NCBI GenBank assembly: GCA_913057955.1
Contig: CAJXOB010000012.1
Span: 1-34,309 of the forward strand
DNA length: 34,309 nt
Direction of reading: 5' to 3'
Source: an uncultured Gammaproteobacteria bacterium
Lineage (GTDB): Bacteria; Pseudomonadota; Gammaproteobacteria; PS1; Pseudothioglobaceae
Part shown: positions 14,313 to 33,480 of the stretch, piece after piece
Layout of the letters: every line of letters begins with the position of its first letter
How positions within the stretch are numbered: the first letter of the stretch is position 1
Position numbers and translations under genes: made by a program
Notes under the pieces: generated by a model
Database searches by the model: none
The model's input: only the letters and a program-made list of their open reading frames with translations
Told to the model about the DNA's origin: nothing

Positions 14313-15977
14313 TTAATCCTTAATAGTTGACTTCAAAATCGCAAAGCCATATGGCCCTAATTCGAGACTATCTTTTTGTAAAGTGTATTCTTGACCTAAC
14401 AATTCATCATAAACATATTCATTAAGTTGGCCATAAATATTTTTTGAATCGCTCAAATTAAAGATACAAAGTGAGGATACATCCTTTAAATTCCTTTCAA
14501 AAACAACTAAATTATTATTTGATTTTTTTAAAGTAAGGTCGCCTCTTTGAAGTGAGGGGTTTAATTTTCTTTTATTAATCCAATATTTGTATTGACTTAA
14601 AGTACTGTTATCATTGTTTTTCTGAAGATTGACAGACAACTTTCCATGATCCGCTTGAACTGGCAACCATGGCTTAAAGTCAGAAAAACCATAATATTTA
14701 TGCGAATTTTTCCAGGGCATTGGCGTCCTACAGCCATCCCTTCCGAAAAAATCTGGCCAAAATTGAATGCCATATGGATCCCTTAGGTCCTCAAAAGATA
14801 TTTCACTTTGAAGCAAGCCAATCTCTTCACCCTGATACAGGCAAACTGACCCCTTCAAACACAGCAATAAATTGAGCGCCATGATTGTAAACTGAGATTT
14901 ATACGATTCATTGTATTGCCAGCGAGATAAGTGCCTCTCAACATCATGATTTGAGTATGAATTACAGAACCAAGCGCCTGAAGAATATACACTTATGGTC
15001 TCTATATAATTTTTGATTTTACTTGCACTCAATTGCCCTCCAAGCAGATCAAAACCATAACACATATTAAGGTACTTGTTTGATGAAGTGTATTGTTCCA
15101 TTAATTTAAAACTTTTAATTCCGTCTTCTCCAAGCTCTCCTAGAGTCATTAGACCTTCATATTTGTCAAGTTGATTTCTAATTTTTTCAAAAAAATCGAG
15201 AGACTCTGGTTGGCTTTTGTCGTAGAGGTGGTCTTGCATCCCATAGGGGTTTATTTTTGGGACTGTTAGAGGCTGAGAGTCATTAGCGAAAAGTGGATTA
15301 TTTCGTAATAACTGATCATGAAAGTAAAAATTTACTGTGTCGAGTCTAAAACCATCTACTCCCCGTTTAGACCAAAAATCTATTACATCTAATTGCTCTA
15401 TCTGAACATCCGGGCAATGAAAATTTAGATCAGGCTGTGTTGTCAAAAAATTATGTAAATAGTATTGATTCCTTGACTCAGACCATTGCCATGCGCCTCC
15501 TCCAAATAAACTTAGCCAATTATTTGGAGCTGAACCGTCTTCCTGAGCATCAGCCCAAACATACCAGTCAGATTTAGAATTATTTTTAGAGGATGATGAC
15601 TCTATAAACCATTCGTGTTGGTCGGATGTGTGACTTAGAACCAGATCAATAATCACCTTAATTTTTAGCTTATGAGCTTTCACTATTAACTCATCAAAAT
15701 CGTTCATATCACCAAACAATAAATCAATCGCCTTATGATCTTTAACGTCATACCCCATATCAAGCATTGGGGACTCAAAGAATGGAGTCAGCCAAATCGC
15801 ATCAACACCTATTGATTTGACATAGTCAAGCTTATTAATGATGCCTCTTAAGTCACCAATACCGTCATTATTTGAATCGTAAAAAGAACGGCAATAGATT
15901 TGATATATTACACAACCCTTCCACCATTCATTTATGGCGCTAACTTCAACAATCTTAATATTGTTATCTTTAAACAA
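14313..15977 (-). CDS. aglA: GH13 alpha-glucosidase (AglA type)
   Basis: A cytoplasmic glycoside hydrolase family 13 enzyme, expected to split imported sucrose, trehalose or maltose-like alpha-glucosides to glucose. Taking the TTG at 15975-15977 as start, which has AAGGAG seven bases upstream, gives 554 residues with no signal peptide. The first conserved block is WWKGCVIYQIYCRSF. The catalytic triad is nucleophile D213 (GFRLDTVNF), acid E281 (TLGELGEDG) and D345 (SNHDVERHLSRW). The longer frame starting at 16007 would only re-read the end of the permease gene. The gene follows aglG by 4 bases. The narrow substrate range cannot be fixed from sequence. Confidence 0.92.
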   Translation of the reverse strand: MFKDNNIKIVEVSAINEWWKGCVIYQIYCRSFYDSNNDGIGDLRGIINKLDYVKSIGVDAIWLTPFFESPMLDMGYDVKDHKAIDLLFGDMNDFDELIVKAHKLKIKVIIDLVLSHTSDQHEWFIESSSSKNNSKSDWYVWADAQEDGSAPNNWLSLFGGGAWQWSESRNQYYLHNFLTTQPDLNFHCPDVQIEQLDVIDFWSKRGVDGFRLDTVNFYFHDQLLRNNPLFANDSQPLTVPKINPYGMQDHLYDKSQPESLDFFEKIRNQLDKYEGLMTLGELGEDGIKSFKLMEQYTSSNKYLNMCYGFDLLGGQLSASKIKNYIETISVYSSGAWFCNSYSNHDVERHLSRWQYNESYKSQFTIMALNLLLCLKGSVCLYQGEEIGLLQSEISFEDLRDPYGIQFWPDFFGRDGCRTPMPWKNSHKYYGFSDFKPWLPVQADHGKLSVNLQKNNDNSTLSQYKYWINKRKLNPSLQRGDLTLKKSNNNLVVFERNLKDVSSLCIFNLSDSKNIYGQLNEYVYDELLGQEYTLQKDSLELGPYGFAILKSTIKD

Positions 15978-15981
15978 TTTA

Positions 15982-17139
15982 TTACTCCTTGACTGAGCCT
16001 GCAACAAGGCCTTTTACAAAATATTTTTGAAGCCCTAAAAAAACAAGCAAAGGGACAATTATCGTAACAAATGCGCTTGCTGTTAATATTTGATAGTCGC
16101 CACCATAAGTTCCCATCAATTGTCTTAATTTAGTTGTCATTACTACTTGGTCCGAGGAGGACCCTAAAAAAACTATAGACACTAGCAAGTCATTCCAAAC
16201 CCAGAGAAACTGAAAGATAGCAAAAGAAGCAAGAGCTGGGAGGGATAACGGAAGCACAAGTTGACTAAATATTTGAAAGTGAGAAGCACCTTCTACACGC
16301 GCTGACTCAATTATCTCTTTAGGAATTCCTACCATATAATTCCTCAACAAATAAATTGCTAGTGGGAGCGCAAAAGCAGTATGTGCAAGCCAAACGCCAG
16401 GATAAGACTTAGCTGAAATATTTAAAAAAGCTCCGATTGAGCTATAAAGACTCAGCAATGGAATTAATGACATCTGAAGAGGAACTACTAACAAACCAAC
16501 AATGACTATAAATAACATTTTTCGCCCAGGAAAATCCATCCATGAAAACGCATAAGACGCAAAAGCTGCAAGGAGTATAGGAATAATTGTGGCTGGGATT
16601 GTAACAGTAAGAGTATTTAAAAATGCCTTCCCTAGTCCTTCAGAAAATAACACGTAATCATAATTATCAAATGAAAAATTAGGCTCAACTAAAACATTTA
16701 TAAAGACTCTTTTGCCATTTTTATGACTAAACGAGTTTTCAGATGTCCAGCGATAACTTCCATTTTCATTAATCATTAATTCTGAAGAGTCTTTGAGCTT
16801 TATAAAAGTACTCGCTTTATTGTCTAAAAAATTATTAAAACTGTCACCAAAATTAATAACTTTAGTGCTTTTGTTGCTCAGAAGTTCTCCACTAATAACA
16901 TACTTGCCATCTATTAATTCTTGTAAATTAGCCTCCCCCAATCTCACCCTTTTATTTTGTGAACTACTACTTAATGAGCTCCACCAACCTGTTGAACTAA
17001 TTTCGTCAGCAGAGCGAAAAGAGCTAACAAATAATCCTAGTGTAGGAAATGTCCAAGCAACCACCAAAATAATCAATAAAAAGTGGGTTAGTAGGCGCAA
17101 TGGTGACGCTAAATACAAGCCTTTTAAACGAGTCATCAT
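15982..17139 (-). CDS. aglG: Alpha-glucoside ABC transporter permease (AglG/MalG type)
   Basis: A 385-residue inner-membrane permease. One N-terminal helix (about 17-37) is followed by a periplasmic stretch of about 120 residues (roughly 40-170) and then the usual five-helix permease core. The EAA loop is EIIESARVEGASHFQIF. MalG-type permeases without the insert are about 280 residues; the insert is a feature I associate with AglG. It starts with an ATG that overlaps the aglF stop by four bases and has GAGGAG five bases upstream. It would pair with AglF and AglK. Confidence 0.92.
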   Translation of the reverse strand: MMTRLKGLYLASPLRLLTHFLLIILVVAWTFPTLGLFVSSFRSADEISSTGWWSSLSSSSQNKRVRLGEANLQELIDGKYVISGELLSNKSTKVINFGDSFNNFLDNKASTFIKLKDSSELMINENGSYRWTSENSFSHKNGKRVFINVLVEPNFSFDNYDYVLFSEGLGKAFLNTLTVTIPATIIPILLAAFASYAFSWMDFPGRKMLFIVIVGLLVVPLQMSLIPLLSLYSSIGAFLNISAKSYPGVWLAHTAFALPLAIYLLRNYMVGIPKEIIESARVEGASHFQIFSQLVLPLSLPALASFAIFQFLWVWNDLLVSIVFLGSSSDQVVMTTKLRQLMGTYGGDYQILTASAFVTIIVPLLVFLGLQKYFVKGLVAGSVKE

Positions 17140-18192: not shown

Positions 18193-19554
18193 TTACTTGA
18201 TTGCATCCCAACTTTTCTGAATAGTATTCGCAACATCCATTGCGCTTTTACCACTCGTATAGTCTACCATACCAGTCCAAAACGAACCAGCACCAACTGC
18301 ACCTGGCATCAAGTCTGAACCATCAAAACGGAAGGTAGTTGCATTTTGCAAAACTTTACCCATGTTTCTCAAGCCATCATTTGCGTAAGCATCTAGATTT
18401 GCACCATTATGAGCCGATAAAAAACCTGTTTGAGCCATCCAAATTTCATTAGCTAAAGGAGTCTTAAGAAAATGCATTAAAGCTGAAGCCGCTGAACTTT
18501 CTTTTGTTACGGCCCAAAGCGTTCCAGCACCTAACACAGGCTTACCTAAATCTAAACTGTCGAATGCAGGAAAGTAGAAGAAGTCCGCATCTACACCAAC
18601 TTTAACATCCTCCGGAAAGAAGGCTGGAATGAAGCTAGCTTGGCGATGCATATAGCAGCGAGGTGGTACAGTAAATAGTCCCTTTGGACTATCACGGAAA
18701 TCTGTTGAAGCAACAGATCCAGCCCCACCATCATTATAAGAATCATTATTAGCAAAAGCTCCAAATGTTTCAATTGCATTCACAACACGTGGATCATTAA
18801 ATGGAATTTCATTACTAACCCATTGGTCATAAACGCTTGGTGATTGTGTACGTAACATTATATCTTCAACCCAGTCAGTAGCTGGCCATCCAGTCGCACC
18901 ACCTGAACCCAAACCAATACACCACGGAGTACCGCCATCAGAAACTATTTGATCACTAAGTGCAATTAGTTCCTCCATACTATCAGGAATAGAATATCCA
19001 CCATCTTCAAAATTTTCAGGTGAATACCAAACTAAACTTTTAAGGTCAGCCTTAAAGAAAAAACCATATAAATTATCATCACCATTTTCATTAGGGAAGG
19101 TTCCAAGATCAACCCAAGATTGACCAGCAGAATAGTTTTCTCGTACCCAATCCGCTGTTCTTTCACCGAGTGGAACTAAAGATCCTCTCGCAGCAAAGTC
19201 AGCCGCTAAGCCTGGTTGCGGAAAAACAGCAATGTTAGGTGGGCTTCCACCTTCAACATCAATTCTAATTTGTGTCTCAAAATCATCAGAACCAACATAA
19301 TCAACATTAGCACCAGTTGCTTCGGAAAAATAATGAAAAACACTTTGAACCATTTCTTGGTCTGGCCCTAGCCAAGGGCCAAAAACTTTAACAGTTTCGC
19401 CAGAAAAATCCATTGATTCAAACATAGCTAGGTCGCCCCAATGAAATTTACTATCTCCTCCTACCGTGAATTTAGCATCTGCTTGAACAGATCCAATAGT
19501 TAGCATTGACACACCAACAGTTATTCCCAGCAAGGTTTTTTGTATTTTTTTCAT
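18193..19554 (-). CDS. aglE: Alpha-glucoside substrate-binding protein (AglE type)
   Basis: A periplasmic binding protein of 453 residues. A signal peptide covers about residues 1-25 (MKKIQK, hydrophobic core, SVQA/DAK). The mature part has the segment VKVFGPWLGPDQEMVQSVF, the QIRIDVEGGSPPNIAVFPQPG region and late TRP/tryptophan-rich ligand positions typical of CUT1 family binding proteins of the AglE group. GGAGT lies seven bases before the ATG. It is the first gene of the operon, under a near-consensus promoter with a LacI-type operator. Confidence 0.9.
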   Translation of the reverse strand: MKKIQKTLLGITVGVSMLTIGSVQADAKFTVGGDSKFHWGDLAMFESMDFSGETVKVFGPWLGPDQEMVQSVFHYFSEATGANVDYVGSDDFETQIRIDVEGGSPPNIAVFPQPGLAADFAARGSLVPLGERTADWVRENYSAGQSWVDLGTFPNENGDDNLYGFFFKADLKSLVWYSPENFEDGGYSIPDSMEELIALSDQIVSDGGTPWCIGLGSGGATGWPATDWVEDIMLRTQSPSVYDQWVSNEIPFNDPRVVNAIETFGAFANNDSYNDGGAGSVASTDFRDSPKGLFTVPPRCYMHRQASFIPAFFPEDVKVGVDADFFYFPAFDSLDLGKPVLGAGTLWAVTKESSAASALMHFLKTPLANEIWMAQTGFLSAHNGANLDAYANDGLRNMGKVLQNATTFRFDGSDLMPGAVGAGSFWTGMVDYTSGKSAMDVANTIQKSWDAIK

Positions 19555-19658: not shown

Positions 19659-19672
19659 TGGAAGCGCTTCCA
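19659..19672. promoter_or_regulatory. LacI-family operator of the agl operon
   Basis: A perfect 14-bp palindrome, TGGAAGCGCTTCCA, with the central CG typical of LacI/GalR operators. It abuts the -10 of the aglE promoter and would cover the transcription start, so bound repressor would block initiation. The regulator is most likely the divergent aglR. Confidence 0.85.
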
Positions 19673-19702
19673 ATTATAAACATAAGTATATTAAACTGTC
19701 AA
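19673..19702 (-). promoter_or_regulatory. aglE promoter
   Basis: On the minus strand a consensus TTGACA (19697-19702) and a consensus TATAAT (19673-19678) are 18 bases apart. Both hexamers are perfect, so this should be a strong promoter when derepressed. Confidence 0.8.
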
Positions 19703-19752
19703 GATATAATTTAAAATATATAAATAAATAACGAAATACCTATTTTAAGTAC

Positions 19753-19758
19753 TATAAT
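19753..19758 (+). promoter_or_regulatory. Possible -10 element of aglR
   Basis: TATAAT on the plus strand, 32 bases before the aglR ATG. There is no good -35. The rest of the 236-base divergent region (19555-19790) is AT-rich and otherwise empty. Confidence 0.38.
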
Positions 19759-19790
19759 ATAACCAATTTTGAATTTTTATATTTATAAAT

Positions 19791-20807
19791 ATGGCAACAA
19801 TTAACGATGTAGCAAAATTAGCTGGTGTTGGAATTGGAAGTGTTTCCAGAGTTATTAATGGAAAAGGCTCAGTCTCAGAAAAAACCAAATTAATAATTAA
19901 TAAAGCTATCAAAGATTTAAATTACAAGCCTAACAATTCTGCCCGCTCTTTAGTTTCGAAAAAATTCAATACTATAGGCATATGGGGTACTGAATCTGCT
20001 GGAACCTTTAACAGTTCAACTCTTAAGCTTATTGATCATGAGCTTATATCTCATGGTAAGCACTGCCTTATAACTAATGGCGATCTCAGCTCCAAAGAAA
20101 ATCCTAATGCTGCAATTAATTCTGTGGATGATTTAATAAGCAAGGGCTGTGATGGAATAATTTTTTGGGGGACTGACATTTCAAACTTTGATATTGCTTA
20201 TATTGAAAAATATTTCCCAAATATTGTACTTCTTAATAACAAAATCGAATCAATTGAGCACAAGTGTTTTTATTATGATCATTACAAAGCTGGGTACTCT
20301 GCTGGCCAGCACCTTCTAGATAAGGGACATACTAAAATTGCTTGTATCACAGGTGACTTTAGAACTGAAGATGGAAGAACGAGACATGAAGGCTTCTTAG
20401 ACTCATTAAATGACAAAGGTATTGTCATTAATCCTGAACTAATAGTTGAAGGAAATTATAGCTTCATTAAAGGTCAAGAAGGCGTACTTCATTTAATCAA
20501 TACAAATCATGAGTTTACTGCTATATTTTGTGGAAACGATCAAACTGCAATGGCAGCTATATCTACCTTGTCTAGTAATGGTTATAGCGTCCCTAACGAT
20601 ATTTCTATTATAGGATATGACGACAATAGTATCGCCTCCTTTCTTTCACCTCCATTATCGACTGTACGCGTTCCTTTTGATAATATGGCGCTTGCAGCAG
20701 TAAGATCATTGCTAAACAAATGCTACAACATGGAGTTGAGTTTAGAAAATAACTTTCCTGTCGAGTTAGTTCAGAGAGAAAGCGTTAAAAACTTAATCAA
20801 TAACTAG
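19791..20807 (+). CDS. aglR: LacI-family repressor of the agl operon
   Basis: A 338-residue LacI/GalR regulator. The helix-turn-helix is at about 4-25 (INDVAKLAGVGIGSVSRVING), and the hinge helix near 47-58 (NNSARSLVSKK) carries the leucine that inserts into the central CG. The rest is a periplasmic-binding-protein-like sugar domain. It is divergent from aglE and close to its operator, as in the rhizobial agl locus. It is a clear paralogue of the regulator at 27209-28240 (shared GIWGTE, HYKAGYSAGQHL/HYQAGYLAAKNL, HTKIACITG and FTAIFCGNDQ segments). No Shine-Dalgarno site is visible. The inducer is probably an alpha-glucoside or a breakdown product, by inference. Confidence 0.93.
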   Translation: MATINDVAKLAGVGIGSVSRVINGKGSVSEKTKLIINKAIKDLNYKPNNSARSLVSKKFNTIGIWGTESAGTFNSSTLKLIDHELISHGKHCLITNGDLSSKENPNAAINSVDDLISKGCDGIIFWGTDISNFDIAYIEKYFPNIVLLNNKIESIEHKCFYYDHYKAGYSAGQHLLDKGHTKIACITGDFRTEDGRTRHEGFLDSLNDKGIVINPELIVEGNYSFIKGQEGVLHLINTNHEFTAIFCGNDQTAMAAISTLSSNGYSVPNDISIIGYDDNSIASFLSPPLSTVRVPFDNMALAAVRSLLNKCYNMELSLENNFPVELVQRESVKNLINN

Positions 20808-20830
20808 CCTATAAGGTGGTTGTAGTTATT
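20799..20830. terminator. Weak bidirectional hairpin between aglR and the GH1 gene
   Basis: AATAACTA and TAGTTATT pair over 8 bp around a 16-base loop that itself contains CCT/AGG. It overlaps the aglR stop and lies in the 32-base convergent gap. The T-tracts are poor, so this is a weak call. Confidence 0.33.
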
Positions 20831-20839
20831 TGTTAATTG

Positions 20840-22309
20840 TTAGTCTAACAACCCTTGCTTTCGAGCCTTTAAAAATTCCTGGAACTTAATAGCACTTCGC
20901 TTAAGCGTTCTATTCTGAGTTTCATAGTCAACATACACAATACCAAAGCGCATTTTATAGCCTTCTGCCCACTCAAAATTGTCCATCAGGCTCCATGCAA
21001 AATAACCTCTGATATCAACACCTTTATTAATTGCTTGATCAACCATAGATAAGTGGCTTTGATAATAACGGTAACGCTGCTCATCATCTACAACACCATC
21101 AATTAAATGATCATCCACTGCAGCGCCATTCTCGGTAATATAAATTGGTGGCAAGTTGTATGTTTCATGAAGATCCGTTAACAATTTGAGAAGCGCATCT
21201 GGGTGGACTTCCCAACCAATATGAGTCCGCTCTACCTCTTCTAAATCAACACTCTTATAGTGAGAATTTTTTTGATTCATTAACTTTTGTAACTGCTCAG
21301 CTTTAGTGTCCTTAGCAGAAACATCATCAGATTCATGGAGGCGAAGTTCTGCACGCTCGATTTTTTTCAAAATAGTATCAGAAACCTTTCCTTGTCTTCC
21401 GCTCTCAACCATACTTCGAGAGTAAAAATTTACCCCCAAGAAGTCAATTTCTTTACTAATAATAGCCATATCATTCTCTTCAATAGTCGGCATTACATCA
21501 ATAAAATGTTGGAATACAGATTCAGGATACTTCCCCTCCATGATTGGCTTAATGAACCAATGGGAATGCTCATCGTCTGCAAACTTTGCAGCTTCGATAG
21601 CGGAGTCATCGACAGGATAATTAGGCGTAAAGTTTAGTACTATTCCATGCTTAGAGTTTGCGGCATTTTTTCTTAATATCGGCATTGCCATGCCATGAGC
21701 TAGTAGCAAGTTATGGCAAGCCAAAAAACCAGATTTATCACCTACAATACCTGGGGCATGGATCCCATAACGATAGCCATGATAAGCGCTACACCACGGC
21801 TCATTCAAGGTAACATAAAAATCAATTCTATCGCCAAAATAGGAACTCACAACTTCGACATACTCAGCAAATTTAGTTGATGTTTCTCGGTTTAACCAGC
21901 CACCCTCATCCTCTAAATATTGAGGCAAATCCCAATGATAAAGAGTAGCCATTATTTTAATATTTTTTTCCTCTAAGGCGCTGATTAACCTATCATAAAA
22001 ATCAAGCCCTTTCTGGTTAACACTCCCATCAAGTTTTATAATACGAGGCCATGCAATTGAAAGCCTATACGCGTCAACCTCTAAAGAAGAAATTAAGTCA
22101 ACGTCTTGCTGATATAAATTGTAATGATTGCAAGCAACATCGCCATTGTGCTGTTTATAAACCTTGCCTGGCGTAGCGCAAAAGGTATCCCAAATTGAAG
22201 TGCAGCGCTCGTCAACGTTTGTTGCGCCTTCTATTTGATAGGATGCAGTTGCAACACCAAAAAGGAATTTAGGGTCGTTTAATTGCGAATCTTTAGGAAA
22301 TTTATACAT
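20840..22309 (-). CDS. GH1 beta-glucosidase
   Basis: A cytoplasmic glycoside hydrolase family 1 enzyme, expected to hydrolyse imported beta-glucosides such as cellobiose-type disaccharides. The chosen ATG (22307-22309) gives 489 residues with no signal peptide; AGG lies nine bases upstream. The N-terminal FLFGVATASYQIEGA is typical. The acid/base is E170 (TLNEP) and the nucleophile is E393 (YITENG). Between NFYSRSMV and IGWEVHP there is a charged, helix-prone stretch of about 60 residues, longer than in the GH1 proteins I know. It is the last gene of the second importer unit, 31 bases after the ATPase gene. The exact beta-glycoside is not determined. Confidence 0.94.
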   Translation of the reverse strand: MYKFPKDSQLNDPKFLFGVATASYQIEGATNVDERCTSIWDTFCATPGKVYKQHNGDVACNHYNLYQQDVDLISSLEVDAYRLSIAWPRIIKLDGSVNQKGLDFYDRLISALEEKNIKIMATLYHWDLPQYLEDEGGWLNRETSTKFAEYVEVVSSYFGDRIDFYVTLNEPWCSAYHGYRYGIHAPGIVGDKSGFLACHNLLLAHGMAMPILRKNAANSKHGIVLNFTPNYPVDDSAIEAAKFADDEHSHWFIKPIMEGKYPESVFQHFIDVMPTIEENDMAIISKEIDFLGVNFYSRSMVESGRQGKVSDTILKKIERAELRLHESDDVSAKDTKAEQLQKLMNQKNSHYKSVDLEEVERTHIGWEVHPDALLKLLTDLHETYNLPPIYITENGAAVDDHLIDGVVDDEQRYRYYQSHLSMVDQAINKGVDIRGYFAWSLMDNFEWAEGYKMRFGIVYVDYETQNRTLKRSAIKFQEFLKARKQGLLD

Positions 22310-22340
22310 AAATATCAACCTATGTTATTAAAAAAATTAC

Positions 22341-23426
22341 TTATAGCCTATCTTCACTCTCAAAGTCAAAGATAGAAATATGAAGAGGATCGAAACCTAA
22401 GTTAATTTTTTCGCCTATATTTATAACTTTATTTCCGTCAACAGTAAATCGAAATTCATGACCATTAAAGTGTGACCAAACAAGTGTATCGGCGCCCATA
22501 GGCTCTATAACCTCAACAACTACATCAAAATTAACGGGCAGACTTTTATTGCCGTCATTCACCACTATATTTTCGGGTCTTACTCCAAGCCATACAGGTC
22601 TTTTGTCCTCAACGACTGTTTGAAAGTTATAGCCATTTAATTCAAATATAGTATCGTCAATTTGAAAGCTTACATTGTCTTTATTATTAATATGTCCTTG
22701 AAGAAAATTCATTCCTGGAGAACCAATAAACTCTGCAACATATTTATTAATAGGAAAATTATAAATATTTTTTGGGTCATCCAATTGTAATATTAAGCCG
22801 TCTCTCATAATTGCTATACGATTTGCCAGTGTCATTGCTTCAATTTGATCATGAGTTACATAAATCATCGTATTGTTTAACTTGTGATGAAGCCTTTTAA
22901 TCTCAACTCTTAGCTCTGTTCTTAACTTAGCATCTAGGTTAGACAAGGGTTCATCGAATAAGAATACGTCAACGTCTCTTACTAAAGCTCGCCCAATTGC
23001 AACGCGCTGACGCTGGCCACCAGAAAGTGCCGCAGGTTTCCGCTTTAAAAGATCTTCAATTTGAAGGATCTCTGAAGCATTCTTGACTCGTCTATTAATC
23101 TCATCTTTAGCAAGTTTTGCATTTTTTAAACTAAACGAAAGATTGCCTTCAACTGTCATCTGTGGATAAAGTGCATAGGATTGGAATACCATCCCAATTC
23201 CCCTCTGCGCTGGCTCAAGCCAGGTAACATTTTGCTCATTGATAAAAATCTGACCATCCGTAACATCCAGCAGACCGGCGATGCAGTTCAACAACGTTGA
23301 TTTGCCGCAACCTGAGGCGCCTAAGAGAACTAAAAACTCTCCTTTTTCAATCGTTAAATTAAGGTCTTTAAGTACTTTAACATCACCAAAATTTAGTGAA
23401 AGGTTTTTAATTTCTATGCTATTCAT
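22341..23426 (-). CDS. CUT1 sugar ABC transporter ATPase (beta-glucoside system)
   Basis: A 361-residue MalK-type ATPase. Walker A GASGCGKST is at 36-44, LSGGQ at 134-138, and VFLFDE at 154-159, the same positions as in the two paralogues of this window. A TOBE-type C-terminus follows. The ATG at 23424-23426 was chosen because the residues after it (NSIEIKNLSLNFG) begin the domain as in the paralogues. An upstream TTG at 23471 would only re-read the end of the permease gene. AAAGG lies 12 bases upstream, which is rather far. The gene is 19 bases after its permease partner. Confidence 0.92.
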   Translation of the reverse strand: MNSIEIKNLSLNFGDVKVLKDLNLTIEKGEFLVLLGASGCGKSTLLNCIAGLLDVTDGQIFINEQNVTWLEPAQRGIGMVFQSYALYPQMTVEGNLSFSLKNAKLAKDEINRRVKNASEILQIEDLLKRKPAALSGGQRQRVAIGRALVRDVDVFLFDEPLSNLDAKLRTELRVEIKRLHHKLNNTMIYVTHDQIEAMTLANRIAIMRDGLILQLDDPKNIYNFPINKYVAEFIGSPGMNFLQGHINNKDNVSFQIDDTIFELNGYNFQTVVEDKRPVWLGVRPENIVVNDGNKSLPVNFDVVVEVIEPMGADTLVWSHFNGHEFRFTVDGNKVINIGEKINLGFDPLHISIFDFESEDRL

Positions 23427-23445
23427 TTTTTTAATTATCCTTTTT

Positions 23446-24354
23446 TTAGCCTTTAACTGCGCCTGCAGCAATACCGCGCACGAAGAGCTTTCCTGAAATA
23501 AAGTAGATAGCCAAAGGTACCAGTCCCGTCAACAAGGTAGCGGCCATATTTACGTTATATTCTTTAACCCCTTGAACTGAGTTCACAATATTATTTAGCT
23601 GAACAGTCATTGGATAATTTTCTGGTTTTGTGTAGATCACACCAAACAGAAAATCATTCCAAATACCCGTAACCTGCAACACAATAGCGACGGCAAATAT
23701 TGGCAGTGACATTGGCATCATTACTCGGAAGTATATTCCCCAAAACCCGGCCCCATCGACTCTCGCTGCTTTAAAAAGTTCTTCTGGGATGGTCGTGAAA
23801 TAATTACGAAATAATAGCGTTAAAATAGGCATTCCAAAAATAGTATGAATAAGAATTAAGCCAGGTAATTTTGTATAAAGTCCCAAATCACGCAGCAGTA
23901 TTACAAGTGGATATATCATAATCTGATAAGGAATAAATGCGCCAAATATCAAGATTGTAAAAAATAGATTGGCCCCCTTAAAGCGCCAGTTTGCCAAAGC
24001 GTAACCATTAATTGATGCGATTACTATTGATACAAAAACTGAAGGAATAGTAATCTTTACTGAATTCCAAAAACCTCTAGATAATCCGTCACAATTAAGA
24101 CCAGTACAAGCCTGTGCCCATGCCTTTACCCAGGGCTCAAAAGTAACCTCAATTGGCGGTGAAAAGATATTACCTAGACGAATTTCTGGCATCCCTTTTA
24201 ATGAAGTAACAATCATTACGTACAGTGGAACTAAGTAATATATGGCAACAAATATAAGCGTCCCATAAAGAATAATATTTCTTCGACTTAGAATCTTACG
24301 TGGTTTTGGTCCTCTAGGGCCATCTGTAGTTTTCATATCTAAAGAATTAGGCAT
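23446..24354 (-). CDS. CUT1 sugar ABC transporter permease, MalG type (beta-glucoside system)
   Basis: A 302-residue inner-membrane permease with about six helices and the EAA loop ELFKAARVDGAGFWGIY. The periplasmic loop after the first helix contains ACTGLNCDGL, a cysteine pair also present in the third system's permease and able in principle to form a disulfide. The ATG at 24352-24354 has GGGAGG about seven bases upstream and overlaps the stop of the preceding permease by 8 bases, so translation is coupled. The C-terminus FVRGIAAGAVKG is shared with the third system. Confidence 0.93.
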   Translation of the reverse strand: MPNSLDMKTTDGPRGPKPRKILSRRNIILYGTLIFVAIYYLVPLYVMIVTSLKGMPEIRLGNIFSPPIEVTFEPWVKAWAQACTGLNCDGLSRGFWNSVKITIPSVFVSIVIASINGYALANWRFKGANLFFTILIFGAFIPYQIMIYPLVILLRDLGLYTKLPGLILIHTIFGMPILTLLFRNYFTTIPEELFKAARVDGAGFWGIYFRVMMPMSLPIFAVAIVLQVTGIWNDFLFGVIYTKPENYPMTVQLNNIVNSVQGVKEYNVNMAATLLTGLVPLAIYFISGKLFVRGIAAGAVKG

Positions 24355-25648
24355 TTTTACGCCTCCCAAATTCTAAATAAGTAAATGGAATTAGTACAAT
24401 TAAAACAGAAACTAACATCATTGTTGAGGCAGCAAAGCCTTGAGCTAGATTTTGTGCACCAAACATGTAATCGTATACATATTTTGCGGGGACCTCTGAA
24501 GAAATTCCTGGACCACCTGAAGTCTGCGCAACAACCAAGTCGTATACCTTAATAATTCCAGCAGCAATGATAACAAGTGTTGTAATAAAAACTGGTCGCA
24601 TCATTGGAATGACAATTTGAATATACGTTTTCCACATTGGAATACCATCAATTCTTGCAGCCTTCCATATTTCTTGATCAATACCGCGAAGACCGGCCAA
24701 CATTAGGCACATTATAAAACCTGTGCCCTGCCAAAGCCCTGCTGCTAGAATTCCGTAGATAACAATATCCATATTGTAAAGTGGATTAAACACAAATGAA
24801 TCAAACCCTATCGATCGAACAATTTTTTGAACACCATAATCTGGGTTTAAAATCCATTGCCACACTAACCCTGTAACAATAAAACTAAGGGCAAAAGGGT
24901 ATAAAAATATAGTTCTGAAAGTATTTTCAAATCTTGTTTTTTGATCCAATAAAGCCGCCAACATAAATCCAATTAATAGAGAAAAAACTAAAGAGCAAGC
25001 TCCATAAATAGCTAAATTCTCTATAGACATATACCAACGATCAGAGTTCCACAGGCGTTCGTACTGTGCAAGTCCAATAAATTCACTTTTTGGAAGCATG
25101 CGGCTATTTGTAAACGAATGATAAACCGTCCACAAGGTTGCTATAACAAAAACACCAACAGCAGTAAACACCATAGGTAATGCTGCAATTTTGCTAGACA
25201 AATTATGAACAAGGGAGCGCTCAATAAATCCTGGGCGCTCTAATTTAGAGTCTCTCGAGCCAACAATAAATAATATCAAGGCAAATAAAATAAATACAAC
25301 AGTTGCAAACAAAGCAAAAGGTTCAAGTGTATTCCAAATCTTTCTAAACTCCTTAAGAGCTGGAAATACTAACTGAGTGCTTTTTTGAGCAAATGACCAA
25401 AGTGCTGTTGAGAATGTTGCTGCAATAAGCCAACCCACCGCTCGGTTGCGGAGTCGATTCGTAATAATTTCGAATTTACCTGCTTTAAAACCAACCCAAA
25501 TTACTAAAAGGAGGGATGCAAGTAATATTAGAAACTGAAGATTTTGAAGCAATTGAGGCTTAATACCAACAGTAGTCATGATTAATAATGCAAAGGCCAA
25601 CATAATTGAACCAATAAATAATCTTTCAGGATGAACTTTTGTAAGCAT
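24347..25648 (-). CDS. CUT1 sugar ABC transporter permease, MalF type, with extra N-terminal membrane region
   Basis: A 433-residue permease. The C-terminal 290 residues are the usual MalF-type core, with EAA loop EIWKAARIDGIPMWKTY, and resemble the 290-residue permease of the third system. The first 140 residues are additional and carry about four hydrophobic segments (near 10-30, 35-55, 70-90 and 110-130). I know extended N-termini in MalF, but not whether this one belongs to a described subgroup. The start ATG has no clear ribosome binding site and lies downstream of a terminator that separates it from the binding-protein gene. Confidence 0.9.
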   Translation of the reverse strand: MLTKVHPERLFIGSIMLAFALLIMTTVGIKPQLLQNLQFLILLASLLLVIWVGFKAGKFEIITNRLRNRAVGWLIAATFSTALWSFAQKSTQLVFPALKEFRKIWNTLEPFALFATVVFILFALILFIVGSRDSKLERPGFIERSLVHNLSSKIAALPMVFTAVGVFVIATLWTVYHSFTNSRMLPKSEFIGLAQYERLWNSDRWYMSIENLAIYGACSLVFSLLIGFMLAALLDQKTRFENTFRTIFLYPFALSFIVTGLVWQWILNPDYGVQKIVRSIGFDSFVFNPLYNMDIVIYGILAAGLWQGTGFIMCLMLAGLRGIDQEIWKAARIDGIPMWKTYIQIVIPMMRPVFITTLVIIAAGIIKVYDLVVAQTSGGPGISSEVPAKYVYDYMFGAQNLAQGFAASTMMLVSVLIVLIPFTYLEFGRRKNA

Positions 25649-25718
25649 AGGTATTAATATAATTTACACGAAAATGGTTAAAAAAAATTATTAGAAACTA
25701 GGGTTACCAAATAAAGAA

Positions 25719-25754
25719 CTGCCGAGCCCCTAGTTAAGCTCGGCAGCTTTTTTT
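25719..25754 (-). terminator. Intercistronic terminator between binding protein and permease genes, system 2
   Basis: CTGCCGAGC (25719-25727) and GCTCGGCAG (25738-25746) form a perfect 9-bp stem with a 10-base loop. In the minus direction it is followed by TTCTTTATTT, a moderate T-tract. The plus side carries seven T, so the hairpin could also stop plus-strand transcription. Confidence 0.75.
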
Positions 25755-25763
25755 ATTTAATGC

Positions 25764-27005
25764 TTAGTCAGCACTTGCAATGATCTTAGCATATTTAGCT
25801 TGAGCATCCTCAGCACTCATATACAAATCACTCCAAAATGTTGTCATCAGTTCATTAATCTGATTGCTTGTATCGGGTGAAAGAAGAATATCGCCTGAAG
25901 GCAGAACATTTCCACCTGCAAGAATCTTCAAACCTTTCTGCATACAATCATTCGCAGTTGACATATCGATGTCACCACGGATTGGCAATGAACCTTTTTT
26001 CAAGTTAAAAGCGACTTGAACTGCTGGAGATACAAGAAGTGCAGCAAGCTCTTTTTGAGCTGCTTCGACATCCGCATCATCCTGAACTGGGAAGTAAAAA
26101 GCGTCTCCACCAGTGTCCAGTATTTCACGATTTCCTAAACCAGGAAGACATGAATAATCAGTTCCAGCAACAGAGCCAGCTACGCTAAACTCACCTTGCG
26201 CCCAGTCTCCATGAATTTGACCACCTGCTTTACCAGTTATTACTAGATTAGTAGCCATATTCCAGTCACCAACGTTTGATCCAATAGCCATTTTACGGGC
26301 ATCATCAAAAGCCTTCCATACACGAGCGTATTCAGAACCACCCGCAACTGTAGCGTCTTTATCACGATTAACTGCGTACCAAGCATCTTCACTAACTAGT
26401 GCTGTAGCTAATACACCAAAAGTTAGGCCAGTTTGCCATCCCTGCTGACCTTGGGCCAAAGGAACGATTCCGTTAGCACGAAGTGCAGGACCCGCAGCAA
26501 CAAACTCATCCCAGTTTGATGGAACAGCTACACCAGAACTTTCATAAGCTTCATGACTTAGCCACAACCATTGAGCTGAGTGAATGTTCACAGGCGCACA
26601 ATAAACACGACCATCAACAGTACATGCGTCTAGTAGATTGCTTGGATAGATAACATTTCTCCAGTTGTTTTCTGAAGCAACATCAGTTAAATCCAAAAGT
26701 AGACCAGCTTCAATTAATTCTTCAGCTTGACGTCCATGGTTAAGTTGAGTAGCTCCCATTGGCTCACCACCAATGATTCTACTGATAATAATAGGTCTTG
26801 CAACACCGCCTGAACCGGCAATCGCACCATCAACCCATTTGTTACCAGTCGCATCGAAAGCTTTAGCAAGCTCTGCAACGGCATTTGCCTCTCCACCAGA
26901 TGTCCACCAGTGTGTAACTTCTAGTTCAGTTGCTGATGCTACATTGACCACACCTGTTATAAGCGCAGTTGCAACAAGAGCTGACCTTTTTATCATTTTT
27001 CTCAT
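25764..27005 (-). CDS. CUT1 sugar-binding protein (beta-glucoside system)
   Basis: A periplasmic binding protein of 413 residues. The signal peptide covers about 1-25 (MRKMIKR, core, NVASA/TEL). The mature start LEVTHWWTSGGEANAV is typical of glucose/mannose-type CUT1 binding proteins and is shared with the third system (VEVLHWWTSGGEAASV). The ATG at 27003-27005 has AGGAGAGAG a few bases upstream. A longer frame from a TTG at 27077 runs through the operator and is not a real start. Co-location with the GH1 enzyme suggests a beta-glucoside ligand. Confidence 0.92.
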   Translation of the reverse strand: MRKMIKRSALVATALITGVVNVASATELEVTHWWTSGGEANAVAELAKAFDATGNKWVDGAIAGSGGVARPIIISRIIGGEPMGATQLNHGRQAEELIEAGLLLDLTDVASENNWRNVIYPSNLLDACTVDGRVYCAPVNIHSAQWLWLSHEAYESSGVAVPSNWDEFVAAGPALRANGIVPLAQGQQGWQTGLTFGVLATALVSEDAWYAVNRDKDATVAGGSEYARVWKAFDDARKMAIGSNVGDWNMATNLVITGKAGGQIHGDWAQGEFSVAGSVAGTDYSCLPGLGNREILDTGGDAFYFPVQDDADVEAAQKELAALLVSPAVQVAFNLKKGSLPIRGDIDMSTANDCMQKGLKILAGGNVLPSGDILLSPDTSNQINELMTTFWSDLYMSAEDAQAKYAKIIASAD

Positions 27006-27062
27006 AGTCTCTCTCCTAATTTTAATTAAAATACAAAAATTGTTCCAGAAGACAATAACTAA

Positions 27063-27076
27063 TGGAACCGGTTCCA
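27063..27076. promoter_or_regulatory. LacI-family operator of importer system 2
   Basis: A perfect 14-bp palindrome, TGGAACCGGTTCCA, abutting the -10 of the binding-protein promoter. It differs from the agl operator only by the symmetric G/C pair flanking the central CG. Likely bound by the divergent LacI protein at 27209-28240. Confidence 0.86.
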
Positions 27077-27107
27077 ATTATAAATAAATAAATAAATCAC
27101 TTATGTG
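27077..27107 (-). promoter_or_regulatory. Promoter of the system 2 binding-protein gene
   Basis: On the minus strand a consensus TTGACA (27102-27107) and a consensus TATAAT (27077-27082) are 19 bases apart; a TTTATA at 17-base spacing is an alternative. A second TTTGACA unit lies 10 bases upstream of the first, forming the repeat element described in the findings. Confidence 0.72.
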
Positions 27108-27173
27108 TCAAAGTATGTCAAATTGTAATGTTTAATATCAAAATTAAATTTAAGATATAGCTAAAATAAACCC

Positions 27174-27208: not shown

Positions 27209-28240
27209 ATGTCAACAATTAGAGATGTAGCAAAGTTAGCAGGTGTTGGAATTGGAACTGTTTCCAGAGTGTTGTCTGACAATGGATCTGTTTCTCAAAA
27301 AACCCTCGCAAAAGTTAATGATGCGATGGCCGCACTTAACTTTACGCCCAACAGCTCAGCTCGCGCATTATCCTCAAAAAAATACAACACAATTGGTATC
27401 TGGGGCACTGAAACTTCTGGTGAGCTTGACAGGAAAACTCTTATAAAAATTGAACACGAGCTTGAGCCATTTAATATCAAAATAATTGTTACTGATGGTG
27501 ATAAAAAATCTACGAAAAACAATACTCATAATAGCCCTCGAACAACACACAGAAAATCTATTGAAAATATTTTTAGAAGCGGTTGTGATGGATTAATCAT
27601 ATGGGGATCTGATATTCCAGATCTTGAGATTATTCAAATTGAAAATGAACACCCTAATATTGTCCTACTAAATAATAAAATTGACCTTCTACCAAATAAA
27701 TGCTTTACTTTTGACCATTATCAGGCAGGTTATCTTGCAGCTAAAAATTTAATTGATAATGGCCATACAAAAATTGCATGCATTACTGGTTGGCTTGATA
27801 CTGATGATGGAAATCTGAGGCAACAAGGATTTTTAGACGCCCTTAATGACAATAATATTGACATCCCAAACACTTTAATTTTTGAAGGAAATTACACTTT
27901 CCGCAAGGGCTATGAAGGCGCGCTACATTTATTAAATCAAAAAACTCCCTTTACTGCTATTTTTTGCGGAAATGATCAATCTGCTATGGCAGCGATTTCA
28001 GCTCTTACAAAGAAAGGATTTAATGTGCCAAATGATATTTCAATTATGGGATACGATGATATGAATATCGCATCCTATACCTTGCCTCCATTAAGTACTA
28101 TTCAGATGCCTTTTCAGAAAATGGCTATCTCTGCAACTAGACGTCTATTAAATCTATGCTATAACTTAGACCTAGAAGTTAATTATGATTTTCCAATTAA
28201 ACTAATTAACAGAGAGAGTGTCAGAAATTTAAAGGATTAA
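27209..28240 (+). CDS. LacI-family repressor of importer system 2
   Basis: A 343-residue LacI/GalR regulator. The helix-turn-helix is at about 4-25 (IRDVAKLAGVGIGTVSRVL), with hinge NSSARALSSKK and a C-terminal sugar-binding domain. It is divergent from the binding-protein gene, whose operator lies 130 bases away. It is a close paralogue of aglR. In the recognition helix the two differ at one position, GIGT here against GIGS in AglR, and they also differ in the hinge. The stop codon lies 2 bases from the stop of the convergent aldo/keto reductase gene. Confidence 0.93.
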   Translation: MSTIRDVAKLAGVGIGTVSRVLSDNGSVSQKTLAKVNDAMAALNFTPNSSARALSSKKYNTIGIWGTETSGELDRKTLIKIEHELEPFNIKIIVTDGDKKSTKNNTHNSPRTTHRKSIENIFRSGCDGLIIWGSDIPDLEIIQIENEHPNIVLLNNKIDLLPNKCFTFDHYQAGYLAAKNLIDNGHTKIACITGWLDTDDGNLRQQGFLDALNDNNIDIPNTLIFEGNYTFRKGYEGALHLLNQKTPFTAIFCGNDQSAMAAISALTKKGFNVPNDISIMGYDDMNIASYTLPPLSTIQMPFQKMAISATRRLLNLCYNLDLEVNYDFPIKLINRESVRNLKD

Positions 28241-29122: not shown

Positions 29123-30220
29123 TTATCGTATTCTTAAACCTGAGTTAGGGTCAAATAATATGGCCTTACTGGTATCTACTTGAAGTTCAAATCCCTTACC
29201 CGCAGAGTTTCCAGATTCCGGACTTAATCTTGCCATAACCTCATTTTCATTCCATTGACCTATCGCTACAGTATCTGCGCCCATAGGCTCAATAACTTCA
29301 ACATCAAATTTAATTTTTTGAACAAATGAATTATCAGCAGCCGAAGGCTGTATTTCAGTAAGCATCTCTGGTCGAATCCCCAACAAAACAACATCTAAAT
29401 TTGATTTAATTAGAGCCTCAGTACATGGGATTATTAATTCATATTTTTGTCCTCCACTCTCAATTACCAAGTTTTGGTCTTTAACAATACATTCAATGAA
29501 ATTCATTCCAGGTGAACCCATAAAATCAGCAACAAAATGACTTACTGGATCATTATATATTTCATAGGGAGTGCCTATCTGTTGCAACTCTCCATCCTTA
29601 AGGACTGCTATACGGTCTGCTAAAGTCATTGCTTCAATTTGGTCGTGAGTTACATAGACTATAGTTGTTCCAATGCGTTTGTGTAATTTTTTAATTTCAG
29701 TGCGCATTTCAACTCGAAGTTTTGCATCTAAATTTGACAAGGGCTCGTCAAAAAGAAAAACTTTTGGTGAGCGAGCGAGCGCCCTTCCCATTGCTACTCT
29801 TTGGCGCTGACCACCTGAAAGTTGTCCTGGCTTTCTGTCTAGCAAGTGATCAATTTGCAGAAGTTCAGACACCCTTTTAAGAATAGATGCCTGTTCATCT
29901 TTTGGTACCTTATTCATTTCCAAGCCAAAGCAAATATTTCTTGCAACACTCATTGTTGGATACAAGGCATAAGATTGAAACACCATGGCAATGTCTCTAT
30001 CTTTTGGAGACTCTTCAGAAACATTTTTTCCATCAATGATAATCTCACCGCTATTTAAATCTTCAAGCCCAGCAATCAAGTTCATTAGCGTAGATTTTCC
30101 GCAACCTGAAGGACCAATAAGAATTAAAAACTCACCATCTTTAATATCAAGATTTATATTTTTTAGTACTTCGGTTGAACCAAATGATTTATTAATTCCA
30201 TTAAGACTTATGCTTCCCAT
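29123..30220 (-). CDS. CUT1 sugar ABC transporter ATPase (glucose/mannose-type system)
   Basis: A 365-residue MalK-type ATPase. Walker A GPSGCGKST is at 36-44, LSGGQ at 134-138 and VFLFDE at 154-159, followed by a C-terminal TOBE-type region. AGGA lies seven bases before the ATG. A 75-base gap (30221-30295) of AT-rich sequence separates it from the permease gene; no promoter or terminator is evident there. It is a close paralogue of the ATPase of system 2. Confidence 0.93.
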   Translation of the reverse strand: MGSISLNGINKSFGSTEVLKNINLDIKDGEFLILIGPSGCGKSTLMNLIAGLEDLNSGEIIIDGKNVSEESPKDRDIAMVFQSYALYPTMSVARNICFGLEMNKVPKDEQASILKRVSELLQIDHLLDRKPGQLSGGQRQRVAMGRALARSPKVFLFDEPLSNLDAKLRVEMRTEIKKLHKRIGTTIVYVTHDQIEAMTLADRIAVLKDGELQQIGTPYEIYNDPVSHFVADFMGSPGMNFIECIVKDQNLVIESGGQKYELIIPCTEALIKSNLDVVLLGIRPEMLTEIQPSAADNSFVQKIKFDVEVIEPMGADTVAIGQWNENEVMARLSPESGNSAGKGFELQVDTSKAILFDPNSGLRIR

Positions 30221-30295
30221 TTTGTTATCCTGTTTTTATTATTTATTTTAATTTTCTATATTTAAGATGACACATTTAATCTATAAATTTACTAT

Positions 30296-31165
30296 TTATC
30301 CCTTTACTGCGCCTGCAGTAAGGCCACGAACAAAATATTTACCTGCAATAACATACACAGCTAGAGTTGGGAGCGCAGCAATAATAGCTGCAGCCATATC
30401 CACGTTATATTCTTTGCCACCAACTGACGTATTCACTAGGTTGTTTAGCGCTACAGTAATTGGCTGCGTTCCAGAGCCTGAATACACAACTCCGAATAAA
30501 AAATCATTCCATATTTGAGTGAACTGCCATATTATTGTTACTACAAATATTGGGGTAGACAAAGGAATAAAAATATGCCTAAAAATTGCAAAAAATCCCG
30601 CACCATCAAGTTTTGCCGCCCTTACTAGCTCTGTTGGTATTCCGACATAATAGTTACGGAAAAAAAGTGTTGTAAAAGCGACTCCGTATATAACATGGAC
30701 TAGTACTAAGCCTGTCACTGTGTTTGCTAAGCCCAACATTCCTAACAACTTTGCCATTGGTAATAGAATAACTTGGAATGGAATAAAACAACCAAACAAT
30801 AGTGCTCCAAACAAAAACTCGCTACCTTTAAATTTCCATTTAGCTAAAGAATAGCCATTAAATGCACCAACAATAGTTGAAATTATGACTGCTGGAAAAA
30901 CAATGCGAACACTGTTCCAAAAATATGGTGCTAAGCCTCTGCAATCACTTCCAGTGCAAGCTGATGACCAGGCTTTTTTCCAGGCATAAAAGGTTGGATC
31001 GATAGGAAGCGCCATCAAATTTCCACTTCGAATTTCTTCAATATCCTTAAGAGATGTTGTAAACATGACGTACAAAGGCGCTAGATATATAAACGCAAAG
31101 AAAATCAGTATCGAATAAATAAATGTGCGACCAATATTATATTTTGTCAGCTTAAGGCTACTCAT
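30296..31165 (-). CDS. CUT1 sugar ABC transporter permease, MalG type (glucose/mannose-type system)
   Basis: A 289-residue inner-membrane permease with about six helices and EAA loop ELVRAAKLDGAGFFAIF. The periplasmic loop has ACTGSDCRGL, matching the cysteine pair in the system 2 permease. The ATG overlaps the stop of the preceding permease by four bases (ATGA), so translation is coupled. The C-terminus FVRGLTAGAVKG is typical. Confidence 0.93.
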   Translation of the reverse strand: MSSLKLTKYNIGRTFIYSILIFFAFIYLAPLYVMFTTSLKDIEEIRSGNLMALPIDPTFYAWKKAWSSACTGSDCRGLAPYFWNSVRIVFPAVIISTIVGAFNGYSLAKWKFKGSEFLFGALLFGCFIPFQVILLPMAKLLGMLGLANTVTGLVLVHVIYGVAFTTLFFRNYYVGIPTELVRAAKLDGAGFFAIFRHIFIPLSTPIFVVTIIWQFTQIWNDFLFGVVYSGSGTQPITVALNNLVNTSVGGKEYNVDMAAAIIAALPTLAVYVIAGKYFVRGLTAGAVKG

Positions 31166-32034
31166 GATTTTTTCTCTCGTAATTCAGAATACAAATAAGG
31201 AATTAAAATGGCCAACACGCCAAACAACATAATCATAGCACTTGAAGCGCCAAGACCAATTTGCGCCCTATTGAAGGTAAATGTGTACATAAAATTAGCT
31301 GGTAAATCAGAGGCATATCCTGGGCCACCTCCAGTCAGCGCCTGAACTAGATCAAAACTCTTGATAGCTATATGAGTAAGAATAACAATAGCACTAAAAA
31401 AAACTGGCCTCATTAGAGGCAATATAACATGCCAATAAAGTTGAATGGTTGATGCGCCGTCGATTTTAGCGGCCTTAGTTAGGTTTTCATCTACTCCACG
31501 AAGCCCTGCCAAGAAAAGTGCCATTACAAAGCCACTTGATTGCCATACAGCTGCAATAACAATGGTATAAATTGCCATATCTTGTTCAACAAGCCAGCGA
31601 AATTCAAACCCTACAAAGCCCCAATCATTCATTAGCTTTTCAATTCCTAAGCCGGGGTTAAGGATCCATTTCCATGCCGTACCTGTGACAATAAAAGAGA
31701 TCGCCATTGGGTATAAATAAATTGTTCTTATTGCTCCTTCGACCCGAATTTTTTGATCAAGGAAAATTGCTAAGAGCAAGCCTAAAACTAATGCAATAAC
31801 AATAAATAAAATTAGAAAGATAAAAAGATTGTCAACTGCTACGTCCCATCGAGGGTTAGCAAATAAACGTCGATATTGATCGAGACCAACAAAGTCCCAT
31901 TGAGGCATCATTCTGCTTTTGGTTAACGACAGTAAACCAGTCCAGACAATGAAGCCATACATACAAATAACCATTACAATCGTAGTTGGTGCTAATACAA
32001 TTTTTGGTAGGTTTTTTTCTAGAAAATTTAGCAC
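31162..32034 (-). CDS. CUT1 sugar ABC transporter permease, MalF type (glucose/mannose-type system)
   Basis: A 290-residue inner-membrane permease with EAA loop NLTKAAKIDGASTIQLY. It has the standard length and lacks the N-terminal extension of its system 2 counterpart. The start is GTG at 32032-32034, without a clear ribosome binding site; no better start is in frame. It lies after the strong terminator that follows the binding-protein gene. Confidence 0.92.
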   Translation of the reverse strand: MLNFLEKNLPKIVLAPTTIVMVICMYGFIVWTGLLSLTKSRMMPQWDFVGLDQYRRLFANPRWDVAVDNLFIFLILFIVIALVLGLLLAIFLDQKIRVEGAIRTIYLYPMAISFIVTGTAWKWILNPGLGIEKLMNDWGFVGFEFRWLVEQDMAIYTIVIAAVWQSSGFVMALFLAGLRGVDENLTKAAKIDGASTIQLYWHVILPLMRPVFFSAIVILTHIAIKSFDLVQALTGGGPGYASDLPANFMYTFTFNRAQIGLGASSAMIMLFGVLAILIPYLYSELREKKS

Positions 32035-32058
32035 AATGAGTTATTATATTATTTAATT

Positions 32059-32089
32059 AAAAAAATGGGGCGCCTAATTTAGGCGCCCC
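32059..32089 (-). terminator. Intercistronic terminator between binding protein and permease genes, system 3
   Basis: GGGGCGCCTA (32067-32076) and TAGGCGCCCC (32080-32089) form a perfect 10-bp GC-rich stem with a 3-base loop. On the minus strand it is followed by an A and seven T. It is the strongest terminator in the window. Confidence 0.9.
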
Positions 32090-32161
32090 TAATCTAAACT
32101 TCAACCAAAAGTAAGGAGACGAATCAAAACTTTTGGTATTAATTTAGAAAACTAACAACTT

Positions 32162-33409: not shown

Positions 33410-33480
33410 ATTTTTCTCCATTGAAATAATATTAACTCCGCCCATCATTGAGCAGAATTACGAATTAGTTTATTACTGAC

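Follow-up and report, generated by a model that had tools for sequence, protein, structure and literature searches.

Conserved operator-like sites within the recognition-helix codons of two LacI-family regulators from an uncultured gammaproteobacterium of the Pseudothioglobaceae

Two regulators of the LacI family, here called R1 and R2, can be found in the stretch of DNA considered here (the window), which comprises the 34,309 nucleotides of contig 12 of a 1.57-Mb genome (79 contigs) from an uncultured gammaproteobacterium of the Pseudothioglobaceae. Each is encoded divergently from a gene for a sugar-binding protein and has a palindromic candidate operator at the promoter of that gene (external operator). 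In addition, each regulator gene carries a conserved putative internal operator within the codons of its own recognition helix, which occupies the same position in all relatives with an intact start, is nearly unique and has frozen silent bases. R1 and R2 are quite probably repressors with an external and a conserved internal operator, after the fashion of purR and galS, the internal one being used for autorepression.

Both internal copies came to light in a motif scan of the window and had been overlooked in the first-pass annotation, an earlier account of this DNA made from its letters alone. They span nucleotides 45-58 of their genes, as TGGAAGTGTTTCCA in R1 and TGGAACTGTTTCCA in R2, each with 13 of 14 positions matching the operator motif TGGAANCGNTTCCA and with two mismatches to the operator at its own promoter (TGGAAGCGCTTCCA and TGGAACCGGTTCCA, respectively). 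In the numbering of PMC2978694, the recognition helix comprises residues 15-22. The variable base of the operator is at the same time the second base of codon 17, at position 19840 in the Ser17 codon AGT of R1 and at position 27258 in the Thr17 codon ACT of R2. In both genes this left variable base (G in R1, C in R2) agrees with the one in the external operator of the same regulator.

Matches to TGGAANCGNTTCCA with at most two mismatches number seven in the window against 1.15 expected, a count reached by none of 100 shuffles. Throughout the genome, the widened motif TGGAANYRNTTCCA has four exact sites, one at each promoter and one inside each regulator gene, against a single one for the reversed control. 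Across the 29 genomes of the genus, 45 sites were found versus 17 for the reversed control; 26 of them belong to these regulators, 13 being external and 13 internal, and the other 19 are about what the background would give. Outside these regulators the internal form, whether with G or with C as the variable base, turned up a single time, as TGGAAGTGTTTCCA at positions 41200-41213 of contig C2 of genome G026 (L088). No regulator of the R1/R2 type was found in that genome, and this lone site is perhaps due to chance.

Relatives were searched for in 83 genomes of the family at an E-value of 1e-40, which gave 15 genes in 13 genomes. The analyzed set consists of the 14 regulators with an intact start, the two of the window included (the one from G022, whose start is missing, was left out); 13 come from the genus and one from genome G032, and protein identity within the set is 50-96%, with a median of 61%. 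In each of the 14, the stretch scanned holds a single external site and a single internal one. The external operators invariably have a CG centre, eight being perfect palindromes and six having one unlike pair, while the internal sites invariably have a TG centre and, at the level of sequence, a single central mismatch to TGGAANCGNTTCCA.

In all 14 genes, codons 15-20 read [ACG]TT, GGA, A[GC]T, GTT, TCC and AGA, whereas codons 11-14 and 21-24 vary; the final T of codon 15 is retained even where Leu or Val is encoded. An invariant third base is found in 18 of the 332 aligned codon columns, six of which are consecutive and correspond to codons 15-20, and six-codon windows clear of the site never hold more than two. 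When these 18 flags were shuffled 200,000 times, regardless of the tree, the longest run was five, seen 13 times, and six was never reached. Among the 57 columns with an invariant amino acid encoded by four- or sixfold degenerate codons, five are codon-invariant and four of these lie inside the site (hypergeometric test, 1.3e-5). If only the peptide and the codon usage in the 25 other genes of the window are assumed, the exact 14-mers have probabilities of 5e-4 and 1e-3, and among 5000 synonymous recodings 19 and 40 produced, at whatever place in the gene, a sequence that matches the own operator no less well than the real site does. The codon TCC, which makes up 4.8% of the Ser codons of these 25 genes, is used at the site in 14 of 14.

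The genus has a second LacI group, with 22 genes in 21 of the 29 genomes, which provides a comparison. In the 19 genes looked at (L003, L004, L099-L109 and L111-L116), all with the helix S-Q-S-A-V-S-R, the third bases of the helix vary without any freeze, TCC is used at the aligned Ser in 0 of 19, and no CG-centred palindrome was found near the gene start at the threshold used. Among 30 loci retrieved for an I/V/L-G-T-V-S-R helix, seven fit the motif (one of them, L160, looks non-LacI); none of these had frozen codons, and at the threshold applied none had a palindrome centred on CG.

Closer likenesses can be found in Escherichia coli. The purR gene, also of the LacI family, has a like site before the gene and one inside it, in helix-turn-helix codons that are partly frozen in relatives; the internal one, GAGCAAACGTTTCCAC in codons 10-15, we take to be the second PurR operator. 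Work by Rolfes and Zalkin from 1990 reportedly concerns this internal operator. In a set of 46 purR genes (45 of the 59 genomes with a match, plus E. coli K-12), 29 encode N12, of which 25 keep the internal site; in these 29, as would be expected for such an operator, site codons 11, 13 and 14 rank 3-5 of 114 for third-base conservation. Among the 17 genes without N12, AACGTT is found in the first 90 bases of none, and when all 46 genes are averaged the conservation signal is lost. The two cases thus differ in register and in constancy, purR using codons 10-15 and losing the site in the 17 of 46 genes without N12, R1/R2-type genes using codons 15-20, invariant in 14 of 14. The purR site is among the GalR-bound regions, where the GalR sites overlap PurR operators (PMC5110547). 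In E. coli galS, the operator OI (2241611-2241626) lies in codons 15-20 (V-A-T-V-S-R), the same codons as in R1 and R2, but its centre is off by 1 base pair (bp) and the codons are not conserved: in 31 galS genes with V/I-A-T-V/I-S-R (from E. coli K-12 and 30 of the 44 genomes in which a match was obtained), the third-base entropy of codons 15-20 is 1.53 versus a median of 1.25, that is, no freeze. This OI is listed for a GalR-bound region from chromatin immunoprecipitation on microarrays (PMC5110547); the fact that in galS of NC_000913 (L179) the published OI falls in recognition-helix codons is not remarked on in the available part of that paper. The conservation signal in R1/R2-type genes is stronger than in purR, where a weaker freeze is seen, and than in galS.

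We infer binding at both sites, autorepression through the internal one, probably as a roadblock, and a weaker internal site. With the external operator adjoining the -10 hexamer of the transport gene, a repressor bound there should block that promoter: the site would overlap the beginning of the divergent sugar-transport promoter, which would be shut directly. The internal operator, lying in codons 15-20 and downstream of the regulator's own promoter, would allow the protein to repress its own gene, most likely by a transcription roadblock, in which contact with the external operator may assist. In E. coli, the purR downstream operators act as such a roadblock to transcription. A TATAAT-like hexamer is found 30-60 bp before the start codon of 12 of the 14 regulators, a count made without control that is weak evidence of a promoter because the DNA is AT-rich; should this hexamer be the promoter, it would have the external site on its upstream side and the internal one on its downstream side, and roadblock autorepression is the simplest use of the latter. 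The internal site may be kept weaker, so as to act when the repressor is plentiful, because its centre is TG in all 14 genes although the synonymous codons ACC or AGC would give CG. ACC and AGC are rarer than ACT and AGT in the window genes, which may contribute to the TG centre.

Several points weigh against an internal operator of this kind. The internal site differs from the regulator's own external operator by one base in five of the 14 genes and by two in nine, always including the centre, and while the variable base of the left half is the same in both sites in 13 of 14 (all but G032), that of the right half is the same in only six. Fewer than 1% of LacI-family sites lie in coding regions, and a CG centre is found in 1173 of 1251 LacI-family regulators with even motifs (PMC4052901). 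The 14 genes are related and do not amount to 14 independent tests, and neither the shuffles nor the hypergeometric test takes the tree into account. The published operator of galS, in the same codons, leaves no freeze, so that such an operator need not leave frozen codons at all. Furthermore, a self-complementary site of this sort is also a small RNA hairpin. Finally, in a crude scan of distant regulators (49 loci, 28 + 2 + 19, of which 15 were dropped as the helix motif failed), 10 of the 34 left had an upstream CG-centred palindrome, to be taken as a candidate operator only, and an internal match with up to three mismatches was found in none of the ten, which indicates that the arrangement is not general across the LacI family.

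Other explanations can be proposed for the same sites. The repressor might bridge the external and internal operators into a DNA loop of 176-237 bp, with the promoter of the regulator gene lying inside it, as happens in the gal system. The paired sites flank the regulator start in 14 of 14 genes, and GalR dimers on two operators associate to form a loop with HU (PMC5110547). However, the site spacings of the 14 loci have no common helical phase, being scattered over 0.10-0.90 of a 10.5-bp turn. Helical phase matters less at such distances. The C-terminal tail of LacI makes tetramers; in the one regulator compared with LacI, the 343-residue R2, this tail is missing, the alignment ending with its residue 337 opposite residue 328 of the 360 of LacI and leaving six residues to follow (R1 has 338 residues). 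Such a loop is rather unlikely. The silent bases could instead be frozen for a messenger RNA hairpin (UGGAA-NUGU-UUCCA) acting on translation or stability, and the 17-mer alone does fold at -4.2 to -4.5 kcal/mol. This hairpin is nevertheless absent from the predicted folds of five 60-base stretches (from 5 of the 14 genes), which differ from one another, it draws no support from compensatory changes since its stem bases are constant in the 14 genes, and it leaves the likeness to the promoter operator unexplained, all of which makes it very unlikely. Least credible of all, and highly unlikely, is a mere coincidence of the peptide G-S/T-V-S-R with codon bias: GGN ACN GTN TCN can indeed spell most of the operator, and no codons for the residues in question are used more often in the window genes than ACT and GTT, but the use of the rare TCC in every gene and the absence of a freeze in galS and in the second LacI group speak against it.

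The first-pass annotation had read the two promoters as duplicated modules whose specificity was split through residue 17 of the recognition helix (GIGS versus GIGT) and through the hinge, an account in which the internal copies are irrelevant. The underlying observation, a paralogous pair with operators unlike at one symmetric position, is real; the position is NT-2, counted from the centre, and the pair recurs in genome G017. In the left half of the promoter operators, NT-2 is G in four regulators (G-type) and C in ten (C-type). Covariation between residue and operator in relatives was borne out in part, residue 17 fitting 13 of 14 operators (T in 10 of 10 C-type and S in 3 of 4 G-type regulators) and failing in G032, which has T17 with a G-type operator. 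Residue 5 fits all 14, with R in the ten C-type and N, I, I and K in the four G-type regulators, whereas V or S at the hinge residue 55 can be found with either operator type among the 14, without any association. Neither residue 17 nor the hinge is thus well supported as a determinant of the operator base here, and residue 55 was rejected as one; as the frozen codons are also ignored, the account as a whole appears unlikely. A family-wide study ties NT-2 to residues 55, 15 and 5 (PMC2978694), but because its method cannot judge highly conserved positions, residue 17 among them, it does not exclude residue 17.

The operator classes form few clades in the tree, corresponding to one or two evolutionary events, which falls short of proof. 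Within the internal site a single base change accounts both for G versus C and for S17 versus T17, so that residue 17 may follow the DNA site; with so few independent changes this is offered as a suggestion only. In both G000 and G017, which hold both paralogues each, the left-half base of each internal site is that of its own promoter operator; this fits insulation, yet is not rare by chance. A more far-reaching possibility, which we consider doubtful though less so than the rival explanations above, is that the recognition-helix codons are an operator for their own protein, that the AGT/ACT base sets both residue 17 and the variable base, and that a change of promoter operator class in this lineage pulled the internal site along with it, S17 being a by-product. 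The G032 regulator, with a G-type promoter operator and ACT inside, could be an intermediate step. If this were true, the protein sequence of a regulator would be partly dictated by a DNA site that its gene must contain.

Both R1 and R2 score above the cut-offs for PF00356 and PF13377, the LacI helix-turn-helix and a sugar-binding-like domain. They had been described as close paralogues with one recognition-helix difference; family and paralogy stand, but the closeness does not, with 191 of 341 residues identical (56%) and, by hand count on the alignment, 22 of the first 60 residues unlike, so that a separation by "minimal change" is overstated. R1 is 74-75% identical to the regulators of G017 (contig C24) and G018, and R2 is 96% identical to that of G009. 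Consistently, R1 groups with the former two in the tree (99/99) and R2 with the latter (100/100), while the tree does not firmly place G032 or order the groups. Because genome G017 holds one regulator of each type and R1 and R2 group with their orthologues, the split between them is older than these species. A recent duplication of the regulator-promoter module was considered and rejected, R1 being closer to its relatives in G017 and G018 than to R2 (56-57%).

The palindromes themselves are present as the first-pass annotation had stated, each directly after a -10 hexamer, TATAAT on the minus strand. On the aglE side the promoter scan found TTGACA-18-TATAAT with a 12/12 match. For system 2 a spacer of 18 or 19 bp had been given, but the distance from TTGACA to TATAAT measures 23 bp and the promoter scan reported no TTGACA/TATAAT pair on that side. 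The modules are accordingly near-duplicates over some 24 bp (operator plus -10), whereas elsewhere the two promoters align poorly. The system 2 TTGACA sits in a 10-bp direct repeat, the box recurring 10 bp further up; such boxes were spotted by eye and then listed by script, and a direct-repeat finder at its settings found nothing in either promoter. In the C-type promoters, the first TGTCA box lies 22-23 bp from the -10 in 8 of 10 and 16 bp from it in the other two (G021 and contig C16 of G017); a second box is listed at 32-33 bp in seven of those eight, and G016 has four in a row. TGTCAAANNN boxes with 10-bp spacing, starting 22-23 bp before the -10, occur at 27106-27122 and at the corresponding place in L008, L010, L011 and L013-L016, with two to four copies listed per system 2 type promoter and fewer in L010. 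Given the 23-bp spacing and the recurrence at 10 bp, the system 2 promoter may depend on an activator, its boxes perhaps being an activator array or a repeat rather than a normally spaced -35.

Table 1. Positions in the window of the regulator genes, their operators and the neighbouring promoter elements
Feature	Position	Strand	Remark
Regulator 1 (R1), LacI family, 338 residues	19791..20807	+	PF00356, PF13377
Internal operator-like site of R1, TGGAAGTGTTTCCA	19835..19848	+	codons 15-20, I G S V S R
External operator of R1, TGGAAGCGCTTCCA	19659..19672		adjoins -10 of aglE promoter
-10 hexamer TATAAT, aglE promoter	19673..19678	-	promoter scan
-35 hexamer TTGACA, aglE promoter, 18-bp spacer	19697..19702	-	promoter scan
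Sugar-binding-protein gene ("aglE")	18193..19554	-	divergent from R1; external operator after its -10
Regulator 2 (R2), LacI family, 343 residues	27209..28240	+	PF00356, PF13377
Internal operator-like site of R2, TGGAACTGTTTCCA	27253..27266	+	codons 15-20, I G T V S R
External operator of R2, TGGAACCGGTTCCA	27063..27076		adjoins -10 of system 2 promoter
-10 hexamer TATAAT, system 2 binding-protein promoter	27077..27082	-	script listing
Two TGTCAAA boxes, 10 bp apart (minus strand TTTGACA)	27106..27122	+	23 and 33 bp from -10
System 2 sugar-binding-protein gene	25764..27005	-	family search, weak matches only

With regard to the neighbouring genes, the name aglE is the label of the first-pass annotation; for this gene, the family search gave sugar-binding-protein matches that are weak and far below cut-off, and for the system 2 binding protein the family matches are likewise weak. 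No third LacI-family gene can be found in the window besides R1 and R2. A third sugar ATP-binding cassette system with its own binding protein lies at 29123-33448, and the motif scan of the window found no exact copy of the operator motif in it. System 1 also includes a GH13-like enzyme (14313-16007), which matches NCBIfam NF051899 (beta-galactosidase BglA) with 749 bits, short of the cut-off of 900, and whose substrate is uncertain.

In several respects R1 and R2 resemble known LacI-family regulators. Like local sugar regulators of the family they have an even palindrome with a CG centre near the target promoter, and autoregulation occurs in 72% of the LacI-family local sugar regulators studied (PMC4052901). 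A second operator inside the repressor's own gene has already been published for E. coli galR and galS (PMC5110547). One is also reported for purR. GalR is a LacI-family repressor with an external and an internal operator, but its internal operator (OI, codons 78-83) lies outside the helix codons, unlike those of R1 and R2. As far as our searches of the literature reach, what is new is a paralogous pair with a site fixed at every silent position of the recognition-helix codons and with each gene of this genome carrying the left base of its own operator. Nothing describing an internal operator in a recognition helix, nor one among the LacI regulators of Thioglobus/SUP05, was found in literature that included few subscription papers, which is not proof that none has been published.

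For the LacI family more widely, a search for sites limited to non-coding DNA would miss such operators; in PMC2978694 the first search was made in non-coding upstream DNA, regions including the first 50 coding bases being also prepared, and in PMC4052901 sites were searched up to +100. The case also warns that a difference in the recognition helix between paralogues need not mean a change of specificity. One stretch of DNA would here be under two constraints from the same protein, since it encodes the helix that reads DNA and is probably also the DNA which that helix reads, and silent mutations alone can test this idea of a dual constraint.

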